From a virus: DNA of 23,014 bases. Positions 2,018 to 4,251 of the stretch are shown piece after piece. Where the stretch lies: the IMG/VR virus record IMGVR_UViG_3300025890_000169, positions 1 to 23,014 of that record; one strand, given 5' to 3'. The translations under genes and the position numbers were made by a program. The notes below the pieces were generated by a model. It searched no databases. It saw only the letters and a program-made list of their open reading frames with translations, and was not told the DNA's origin. How positions within the stretch are numbered: position 1 is the stretch's first letter; the number at the start of each line of letters is the position of its first letter.

Positions 2018-2043
2018 TGTTGTTTGTTTTTATTTGTTTATAA

Positions 2044-2511
2044 TTAAAAGCACTTTAATTGTTCATAAGCTGATATTTTAATTTTAGTTTCATCGTGTTT
2101 CTCAGGCTTAAAAAAATCTATTAAAAATTTATCATTTGTTACATTATACTCGTTCTCTATAAAATCTTTTGGTTCTTTTCCGTAATTATTATTTTTTATT
2201 TCTTGTATATATGTAATTCCATTTATTGTTTTAGCGTTTAAAAAATCATCATCAATTTTTATTTCACTTTTAACAATAAAACATTTAATAATTGTATTGT
2301 CATTTAATTTTATGTTGCTTAAATTACTTAATTGTTTATATAAGTTAATACTACATTTATCGTTTTTATTTTTATGGTCAATTATAAAAGTATATTTTGT
2401 ATTGTATTTTGTAATTAAAGTATCAATATCCATTATAGTTCTTAATCTGTCTGAATTAATACTAAGTAAAAAGTTTAATTTATTATTGTGATATTTTTCA
2501 TTGTATTTCAT
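2044..2511 (-). CDS. Unknown AT-rich early protein, 155 aa
   Basis: The chosen start is the ATG at 2511, directly after the leader AAACAAACAACAATG; an upstream in-frame ATG at 2568 lies inside the ABC-GNAT gene and would add 19 residues of unlikely sequence. The protein opens MKYNEKYHNNKLNFLLS and is very rich in Asn, Lys, Ile and Asp. It has no membrane segment and no motif I recognise. Its coding sequence looks even more AT-rich than its neighbours, which may reflect recent acquisition or relaxed selection. It starts 17 bases after the ABC-GNAT stop, so it may be co-expressed with that protein, and its first 19 bases resemble those of the ABC-GNAT gene. Function unknown. Confidence 0.62.
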   Translation of the reverse strand: MKYNEKYHNNKLNFLLSINSDRLRTIMDIDTLITKYNTKYTFIIDHKNKNDKCSINLYKQLSNLSNIKLNDNTIIKCFIVKSEIKIDDDFLNAKTINGITYIQEIKNNNYGKEPKDFIENEYNVTNDKFLIDFFKPEKHDETKIKISAYEQLKCF

Positions 2512-2528
2512 TGTTGTTTGTTTTAAAT

Positions 2529-3674
2529 TTAAAATAATGATATTTGGTCTTGTGATACATCTTTCCAAGCGTCAGCATTAAAAAGAATAATATCTGTTGA
2601 GTCTTCTGACTCAGGGCCATCGTATCTAAAACTATAAGCGGCGGAATCTCGTAACTTTCTGCCTTTCAGTTTACCGCCCTCTTCTGAAGACTTTGTTTTT
2701 CCGTTAAAATGATAGTGAGTATCAGCCATACGTTTATTAACTAATGCTGGGTTAACGCTTTTGACATACATAAGTTTTCCTGTTTTCACAAACAGCGAAT
2801 GAAGATACTTTGAACAAGCATAGCCAATACCCAAACCTTGATAGTCGGGCAATACAACGCTTCTACTACCTCTCCAAGCGTTTTGAATAGTCCCTGAAGG
2901 CATTGGTAAAAATGCAAAAAAGGCAACAGGTCTGTCGTTCCAAGTGACTAAAAAACATTTAGCGGCGGGATTCAAGTCTTCGCTTATATAGTGATGTTGT
3001 TTGAATATTTTCCAAGTCGCATATCGACATCGAAATATCTGTAATTTAATTTTTGGTCTTGATTGCCGAAGTAAGGAGGGCTTTTCAACCCTCCCTTTTA
3101 ATGGTGAGTAAGTCCAATCTGGTAATAACCATTCCATAATATCAAAATGACAACTTGCTAATATTATTTTTTTATTATTACGTCTTATAAATTTTTGTAA
3201 AGCGTTGCTCATAGCTTTTGCCACGTCTCTATCTACAACAGATGTATACTCGTCAATTAATATAGTTTCGTTTTCTTTTGCGTTTCCAACTTTATAAGCT
3301 AATTCTGCTCTATATTGTTCACCGTTTGATAAAGTATGAAAAGGTCTTAACCAAGTCGGAACAGAACTTAAACCCATTGAACTTAGTAACATTGTAGCTT
3401 CGTTTGGTTCTAACCAATCAAAATTACTTATTAAAGGTTTTTCATTGCTGAAAACACATTTATTTAAAGTACCAAATTCTTTCAATAATGTTGTTTTTCC
3501 CGTTCCAGAACCTCCATAAATAACACCAATATTCCATTTAAAAGTTTTACAATCAGAAAAATTAATTGGAATTTTAACTGAAGTTTGCTCATTGTTTTGT
3601 ATGTCAAATGCTTCATATATGTAATTTGTATATTTATCATTTATTATATTACTTGATTTTTCTATGTATTTCAT
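2529..3674 (-). CDS. ABC-ATPase fused to GNAT acetyltransferase-like domain
   Basis: A 381-residue two-domain protein. The N-terminal half is an ABC-type ATPase: Walker A GGSGTGKT (54-61), signature-like LSNGEQ (115-120), Walker B ILIDE (138-142), D-loop SVVD (145-148) and switch His176 in ASCHF. There are no membrane segments, so it is not a transporter by itself. From about residue 205 a GNAT-like domain follows, with the acetyl-CoA loop region VLPDYQGLGIG (274-284) and later KSVNPALVNKR. GNAT-related folds in phages include Mu Mom, which modifies adenine in DNA, so DNA modification or another nucleic-acid acylation is a reasonable hypothesis. It is coupled by ATGA to the HTH-like gene upstream. 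Domain calls are strong; activity is inference. Confidence 0.8.
   Translation of the reverse strand: MKYIEKSSNIINDKYTNYIYEAFDIQNNEQTSVKIPINFSDCKTFKWNIGVIYGGSGTGKTTLLKEFGTLNKCVFSNEKPLISNFDWLEPNEATMLLSSMGLSSVPTWLRPFHTLSNGEQYRAELAYKVGNAKENETILIDEYTSVVDRDVAKAMSNALQKFIRRNNKKIILASCHFDIMEWLLPDWTYSPLKGRVEKPSLLRQSRPKIKLQIFRCRYATWKIFKQHHYISEDLNPAAKCFLVTWNDRPVAFFAFLPMPSGTIQNAWRGSRSVVLPDYQGLGIGYACSKYLHSLFVKTGKLMYVKSVNPALVNKRMADTHYHFNGKTKSSEEGGKLKGRKLRDSAAYSFRYDGPESEDSTDIILFNADAWKDVSQDQISLF
3073..3096. other. GC-rich hairpin at the ABC-GNAT domain linker
   Basis: On the plus strand GGAGGG (3075-3080), loop CTTTTCAA, CCCTCC (3089-3094) form a perfect 6-bp stem; on the coding (minus) strand a G-U pair and an A-U pair can extend it. 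The hairpin encodes the segment around residues 190-202, which is the linker between the ATPase and GNAT domains. On the plus strand it is followed by CTTTT, weakly terminator-like. Its loop resembles that of the terminator behind the capsid gene (CTTTTACA). Confidence 0.45.
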
Positions 3675-3955
3675 ATGTTATTAGCTTTTAAGTTATCGTA
3701 ATAAAAAGACTTTTCTTCTTTGCTTATGTCTTCCCACTTATAAGTAGGAGTAGAACCGTAGTCCCACTCCTCGTTATAATATGCCTCTCTTTTGTAGTTT
3801 GGTATTTGATTTACTTTTATAGGCTTATACAATTGACATAAATAAACAGCATTAACATTCCACTGCTCCGCTAGTTCAGGGATTGTATATCCCTCAATTA
3901 TTAAATCTTGTATAAGACTCGAAAACCATATCGAATTCCTTTTTATTGAAGTCAT
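3671..3955 (-). CDS. Small HTH-like protein coupled to the ABC-GNAT gene, 94 aa
   Basis: Starts MTSIKRNSIWFSSLIQD. Residues about 15-45, with GYTIPELAEQWNVNAVYLC, look like a helix-turn-helix: a helix, the turn around Gly22-Thr24, then a recognition-like helix after WNVN. The rest is acidic and aromatic (YYNEEWDYGS, EEKSFYYDNL). Its stop overlaps the ABC-GNAT start as ATGA, so the two are probably made together and may work together, for example with this protein providing DNA recognition. No family is recognised with certainty. It ends 17 bases after the SSB-like gene stop on the transcript, in the middle of the recombination cluster. Confidence 0.6.
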   Translation of the reverse strand: MTSIKRNSIWFSSLIQDLIIEGYTIPELAEQWNVNAVYLCQLYKPIKVNQIPNYKREAYYNEEWDYGSTPTYKWEDISKEEKSFYYDNLKANNI

Positions 3956-3972: not shown

Positions 3973-4251
3973 TTAAAAGGGTAAATCATTTGACGACTCC
4001 CAGGAGTCAGATTCTTGTTTCACAGGCTGTCCTTTTTGCTCTGTGTCAGGCTTCCAAGTGTCAACAGAGACAGCTACGTTCTTTCCGTATTGGTCAGCTT
4101 CGTCTTTTACGTTTATATTTAATTTAATAAACTTATTACCGTTATACTCTTGAATGTAGTCTTTAATTTTAGCGGGGTTAATTGTTACTTTTAACCACTT
4201 GTCATTCATTGCTTTACCGCTTCCACAGTATATTGTTTCTTCTTTCTTCAT
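3973..4251 (-). CDS. Single-stranded DNA-binding-like protein with acidic tail
   Basis: A 92-residue protein with a beta-rich core: WLKVTINPAKI, then FIKLNINVKDEADQYGKNVAVSVDTW, followed by a polar linker (about residues 68-82) and the C-terminus WESSNDLPF. The architecture of a compact OB-like core, disordered linker and acidic tip ending in D-[IL]-P-F matches bacterial and phage SSBs, whose tip recruits repair and replication proteins. It is shorter than E. coli SSB (about 178 residues) and its core is diverged. The tail could let it substitute for host SSB and recruit host SSB partners. It lies just after the exonuclease gene and two small genes, a normal place for an SSB. Leader before ATG is repeated AACAAATAA units. 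Confidence 0.68.
   Translation of the reverse strand: MKKEETIYCGSGKAMNDKWLKVTINPAKIKDYIQEYNGNKFIKLNINVKDEADQYGKNVAVSVDTWKPDTEQKGQPVKQESDSWESSNDLPF

Follow-up and report, generated by a model that had tools for sequence, protein, structure and literature searches.

Analysis of a 23,014-base window, comprising one complete IMG/VR virus record, identified a gene whose product joins an ABC ATPase to a GNAT domain in a single protein, and comparison across its family suggests that these proteins are brought to DNA in one of two ways, by a ParB partner or, in the window phage, by a C-terminal tail resembling a β-clamp-binding motif. We lean towards reading the fusion protein as a phage-encoded, ATP-driven DNA-modifying acyltransferase, in which an ABC dimer would bring the GNAT domain to a base amine, a ParB protein or the clamp-like tail would provide recruitment and the resulting modification would act against host restriction. 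The window is a tailed-phage fragment, and for the ABC-GNAT gene the closest annotated relative is Nonlabens phage P12024S, which has a cultured host and whose homologue shows 66% identity. The features of the gene and its product are given below.

2529..3674, minus strand: ABC-ATPase/GNAT fusion gene, 381 aa, ATG start; phrog_11143
3492..3515, minus strand: Walker A GGSGTGKT, residues 54-61; G54, S56, G57, G59 and K60 invariant in 70 homologues
3318..3332, minus strand: ABC signature LSNGE, residues 115-119 (LSNGEQ 115-120); L115, S116 and G118 invariant
3249..3263, minus strand: Walker B ILIDE, residues 138-142; D141 and E142 invariant
3147..3149, minus strand: switch histidine H176 in CHFDIMEWLLPDW; invariant
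2619..3044, minus strand: GNAT domain, residues 211-352; AF2 models, Foldseek matches to RimI, YncA, 2ae6 and 1y9k
2982..2996, minus strand: HHYIS motif, residues 227-231, past the first GNAT helix; H228 and Y229 invariant
2823..2840, minus strand: acyl-CoA-binding loop QGLGIG, residues 279-284; Q279 and G280 invariant
2592..2822, minus strand: hypervariable C-terminal part of the GNAT domain, about residues 285-361
2532..2546, minus strand: C-terminal QISLF, residues 377-381; matches the β-clamp-binding consensus QLxLF

All ABC motifs are present in the N-terminal 200 residues, including a D-loop (SVVD, residues 145-148), and the C-terminal half is the GNAT domain with its QGLGIG loop. The Walker A, the signature, D141/E142, H176 and Q279-G280 varied little or not at all among 70 diverse homologues, and whole-gene dN/dS values of about 0.11-0.25 in comparison to three relatives indicated purifying selection. 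The full AlphaFold2 model had a mean pLDDT of 87.4 and a pTM of 0.81, and the GNAT part modelled on its own reached a pLDDT of 86. Foldseek searches against the PDB matched the N-terminal part to ABC ATPases and the C-terminal part to GNAT enzymes, the nearest folds being the canonical acyl-CoA GNATs listed above (TMt up to 0.71). The intact motifs, confident model and matches to both folds confirm the original prediction, made from the sequence alone, of an ABC ATPase and a GNAT domain in one protein, including the GNAT fold of its C-terminal half. The ABC domain was closer to transporter NBDs than to DNA-acting ABC proteins, and no transmembrane partner for it was seen. Residues 281-360 showed 24–46% mean pairwise identity within the clade in comparison to 58–92% in the ABC part, and in four relatives (L009, L012, L013 and L020) nucleotide similarity was lost across the C-terminal part of the GNAT domain while the flanks were conserved. 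Such hypervariability past the loop among close relatives appears as if substrate specificity were diversifying. In L009 the flanks of this part (window 2592-2822) were 84–86% identical in nucleotides.

The gene lies in an early replication and recombination block, as had been proposed, with neighbours that include a YqaJ-type exonuclease and a primase/helicase-type P-loop gene (both by PHROG profile), an ERF-like gene (by synteny with P12024S) and an SSB-like gene. The SSB-like gene product (92 aa; window 3973-4251) ends in SSNDLPF, which resembles the SSB acidic tip, and is probably a phage single-strand-binding protein judging from these sequence features.

The fusion protein matched phrog_11143 ('unknown function') with an E value of 3.6e-129 over residues 3-358 of 381, and homologues were found in 63 records of the phage collection, carried by phages of Bacteroidota, Actinomycetota, Bacillota, Pseudomonadota and Leptospira. 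Several Bacillota phages encode the ATPase and the GNAT in two genes side by side. Statements in PMC7824862, citing Iyer et al. 2013, describe an ABC ATPase-coupled GNAT family with the same two fused domains and the same role, that of a predicted nucleobase-acylating system. The window protein belongs to this family by its phrog_11143 profile match, its intact ABC motifs and CoA loop, and its homology over all or most of its length to two members named there, the pT24 protein (57% identity over residues 1-315, E 4e-104) and QAX98348.1 (36% identity, E 7e-54), which an accession check showed to be the Aeromonas AsFcp_2 protein. The pT24 gene (L083 5001-6173) is annotated as two ORFs, and same-frame homology continues past the first stop. 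The proposal that the window gene serves DNA modification or anti-restriction thus keeps the backing of its GNAT fold and genomic context but is not new, given the prediction reported in PMC7824862 from Iyer et al. 2013. A modified nucleoside measured for any family member was not found in the open-access literature. Of 63 genome loci whose downstream sequence was long enough, 41 had phage packaging-type neighbour genes, the terminase large subunit and portal near ABC-GNAT being confirmed on representatives of these loci, and a cellular (non-phage) role of the family was rejected on this basis.

A ParB_N gene, confirmed by Pfam, immediately preceded the family gene in 58 of the 88 groups (defined at 70% identity) that had upstream sequence, all 58 of them outside the window's clade, and many of these ParB-linked loci had a terminase gene downstream. 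ParB_N was absent from the window and from the complete genome of P12024S, and no ParB gene was adjacent to ABC-GNAT in the window's clade. Mom of phage Mu (phrog_1384, PDB 8bv8), a GNAT-superfamily DNA modifier and in this respect like the role predicted here, has ParB partners and a genomic slot in common with the ABC-GNAT family in some phages. The Mom gene of Microbacterium phage Appa is preceded and overlapped by a ParB gene. The ParB encoded there and the one encoded upstream of ABC-GNAT in Arthrobacter phage EastWest share 44% identity, and this type of ParB also matches DNA methyltransferase profiles. ABC-GNAT and a PurN-like formyltransferase occupy the right end of Porphyromonas phages 011a and 008a, where phage 012a carries a homologue of Mom (phrog_1384, E 8e-41) in the slot of both genes, flanked by 3.2 kb at 88–90% identity on the left and 91 bp at about 81% on the right. 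ParB shared with Mom and methyltransferases, and the slot shared with Mom, link the family through its gene neighbourhood to DNA modification, and together with the methyltransferase-like tail described below this context supports a DNA-modifying role. In Porphyromonas and Pseudomonas phages the PurN-like formyltransferase gene overlaps the end of ABC-GNAT (L090 4616-5089, L095 4586-5203, L294 5349-5822), and a ParB-methyltransferase fusion (L074 6260-7387) was without a QxxLF tail.

Specific kinship with Mom, which had been suggested as a point of comparison, was not upheld. Mom is without the ABC domain and has no significant profile match to ABC-GNAT (no phrog_1384 match by the fusion protein; hhalign probability 2.6%), aligned Mom sequences lack the QxxGxG loop that the ABC-GNAT family keeps, and the nearest folds were canonical acyl-CoA GNATs, with Mom 8bv8 absent from the top 50 structures found by Foldseek. 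Mom membership was consequently rejected. An invariant H-Y-S occurs in Mom at the same place as HHYIS of the fusion protein, possibly by chance.

For binding to the bacterial β-clamp the established C-terminal consensus is QLxLF (PMC4549789; PMC9690074), found in clamp-binding transposases and polymerases, and the fusion protein likewise ends in Q-[ILT]-x-[LIM]-F within a flexible tail (residues 378-381 with pLDDT below 50), so that clamp binding is putative here. Among members of the window's own Bacteroidetes-phage clade, 80 of 81 end in Q-[ILTV]-x-[LIM]-F, with 36 distinct tails that all hold the Q and the F; in the sole exception (L044 1887-3026) a stop codon stands directly ahead of NQISLF. 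Only 6 of 849 other ORFs at the same loci had a QxxLF tail, namely five DNA methyltransferase ORFs and one ERF recombination protein. The tailed methyltransferase ORFs fall into two unrelated families in similar phages (L002 7917-8558, L050 9839-10390, L016 2666-3265), and wider sampling of the two families (loci L302-L461) recovered QxxLF in 62/68 and 67/71 distinct proteins, proportions that are not unbiased as these loci were picked by overall similarity to one query each. The QxxLF tail was present in no ParB-adjacent group representative in the family tree. A second ParB-less lineage, placed by the tree within the ParB-linked part of the family, has HDLF, YDLF or YNLF at its C-terminus, and may represent a comparable tail with weaker support since its NHDLF is without the Q. 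Members with neither ParB nor tail were VmeM-32, AsFcp_2, Komp_PAO1_1 and the Porphyromonas phages. The tail and ParB patterns are phylogenetically clustered, indicating few independent events, and since the tree was midpoint-rooted it suggests rather than fixes the direction of change. Neither ParB exchange nor a clamp-like tail is mentioned in the open-access statements on the family, although the ParB linkage may stand in Iyer et al. 2013.

Under the mechanism that we favour, two ABC domains, given their intact motifs and the behaviour expected of such domains, would dimerise on ATP and place the fused GNAT domains on DNA, where dimerisation could serve the GNAT by gripping DNA, exposing a base or gating. 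The GNAT would take an acyl group from acyl-CoA, the probable donor because the QGLGIG loop is intact, and pass it to the amino group of a base, which would probably shield phage DNA against restriction by the host. Most of the family would rely for targeting on the ParB_N protein whose gene lies immediately upstream. The window's clade is without ParB, and there the unstructured QISLF tail may instead attach the enzyme to the β sliding clamp of the host, in which case DNA would be modified during replication, a form of replication-coupled DNA acylation. Eukaryotic DNMT1, a DNA modifier that the sliding clamp PCNA recruits to newly made DNA, would be a precedent, although both the enzyme and the type of clamp-binding motif are unrelated to ABC-GNAT. 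More tentatively, and with rather less confidence than in the role of the fusion protein itself, we suggest that phage DNA modifiers use interchangeable recruiters (ParB_N or a clamp tail), that C5-methyltransferase, N6/N4-methyltransferase and ABC-GNAT converged on the tail in Bacteroidota phages so as to mark DNA at the fork, and that ABC-GNAT installs an undescribed acyl base. If true, clamp-tailed modifiers would explain how newly made phage DNA is protected before restriction acts and would form a bacterial parallel to DNMT1 on PCNA. A widespread phage family with a decade-old prediction would thereby gain testable hypotheses on the base acylated, the need for ATP and the route to phage DNA, and the QxxLF tail offers a simple sequence flag for spotting further phage DNA-modifying enzymes.

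Two alternatives keep the acyltransferase but move it to another substrate. The fusion protein could acetylate a host replication or transcription protein, being brought to the replisome by its clamp-like tail, and such a role would agree with the presence of that tail, with RimI-type protein acetyltransferases among the nearest solved GNATs and with the description in PMC7824862 of phage GNATs such as phiKMV Rac as acetylating RNA polymerase; we nevertheless regard it as unlikely, as the sharing of ParB and slots with Mom and of the tail with methyltransferases fits a DNA substrate better. A slightly less probable substrate is tRNA or rRNA, with the enzyme acting in the manner of TmcA, whose target is the tRNA wobble cytidine, in opposition to host tRNA-targeting defences. 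TmcA, the tRNA(Met) cytidine acetyltransferase (2zpa), holds an ATPase and a GNAT in one chain as here, acetylates a nucleobase amine and was among the top Foldseek matches, spanning both the ATPase and the GNAT parts. However, its ATPase is of a different class, its substrate is RNA and its structural similarity to the fusion protein is low (TM-scores 0.15-0.25); the fusion protein has an ABC-type ATPase with the LSxGE signature, which sets it outside the TmcA family, and the family is found beside genes for DNA replication, ParB and terminase and in Mom slots rather than beside RNA genes.

Two further alternatives draw on the genes around the fusion gene, the features of which are as follows.

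3671..3955, minus strand: HTH-like gene, 94 aa; a neighbour and not an obligate partner
2042..3677, minus strand: exchangeable cassette (fusion gene and 155-aa companion); flanks 87–97% identical in relatives with other genes
2044..2511, minus strand: companion gene, 155 aa, fold unknown; product ends in EQLKCF

The fusion gene start shares ATGA with the upstream 94-aa gene, in agreement with the overlap noted originally, and this arrangement suggests a model, along the lines first envisaged, in which the HTH protein recognises the target site within one obligate complex with the ABC ATPase and the GNAT. That overlap and the adjacency of the genes in the close clade are in its favour, but the adjacency was conserved only there, and most Bacteroidetes-phage homologues had unrelated genes upstream. 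Moreover, seven further near-identical phages (L295-L301) carried the HTH gene at 88–96% identity without an ABC-GNAT gene. In six of these the flanks were 87–97% identical to the window, up to 3677 and again from about 2041, with a 170-aa or 119-aa gene between them instead; the contig of the seventh stops just past the HTH gene. Positions of about 2042-3677 thus form a swappable cassette, and since the HTH gene stays in all seven relatives while the cassette is replaced in the six with continuing contigs, its role as DNA-recognition partner is not supported and the obligate arrangement is largely refuted, leaving it a very slight probability. It is only by its sequence pattern that the 94-aa protein resembles an HTH protein, as Pfam, PHROG, NCBIfam and PADLOC profiles did not identify an HTH in it.

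The cassette position and the companion gene could also be interpreted as a component of superinfection exclusion or defence, rather than of protection of the phage's own DNA, and jumbo-phage Mom domains are described in PMC7824862 as typically fused to restriction-type nucleases. We consider this improbable, more so than either change of substrate, as the companion has no PADLOC family, the fusion protein has weak generic ATPase matches only and the locus lies in an early replication operon. A DNA-modifying acyltransferase remains our preferred reading of the fusion gene, with which the companion travels in the close clade. The sequence pattern of the 155-aa protein made it a candidate nuclease, but it had no match in Pfam, PHROG, PADLOC or PDB sequences; its distant homologues end in QQLLF or QQFLF. 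Of the genes that occupy the cassette slot in relatives, the 119-aa gene (L300 2782-3141) is phrog_13596 (unknown function), and the 170-aa gene (L295 2799-3311) has a nuclease-like FDIKGK pattern and ends in QQQLF.
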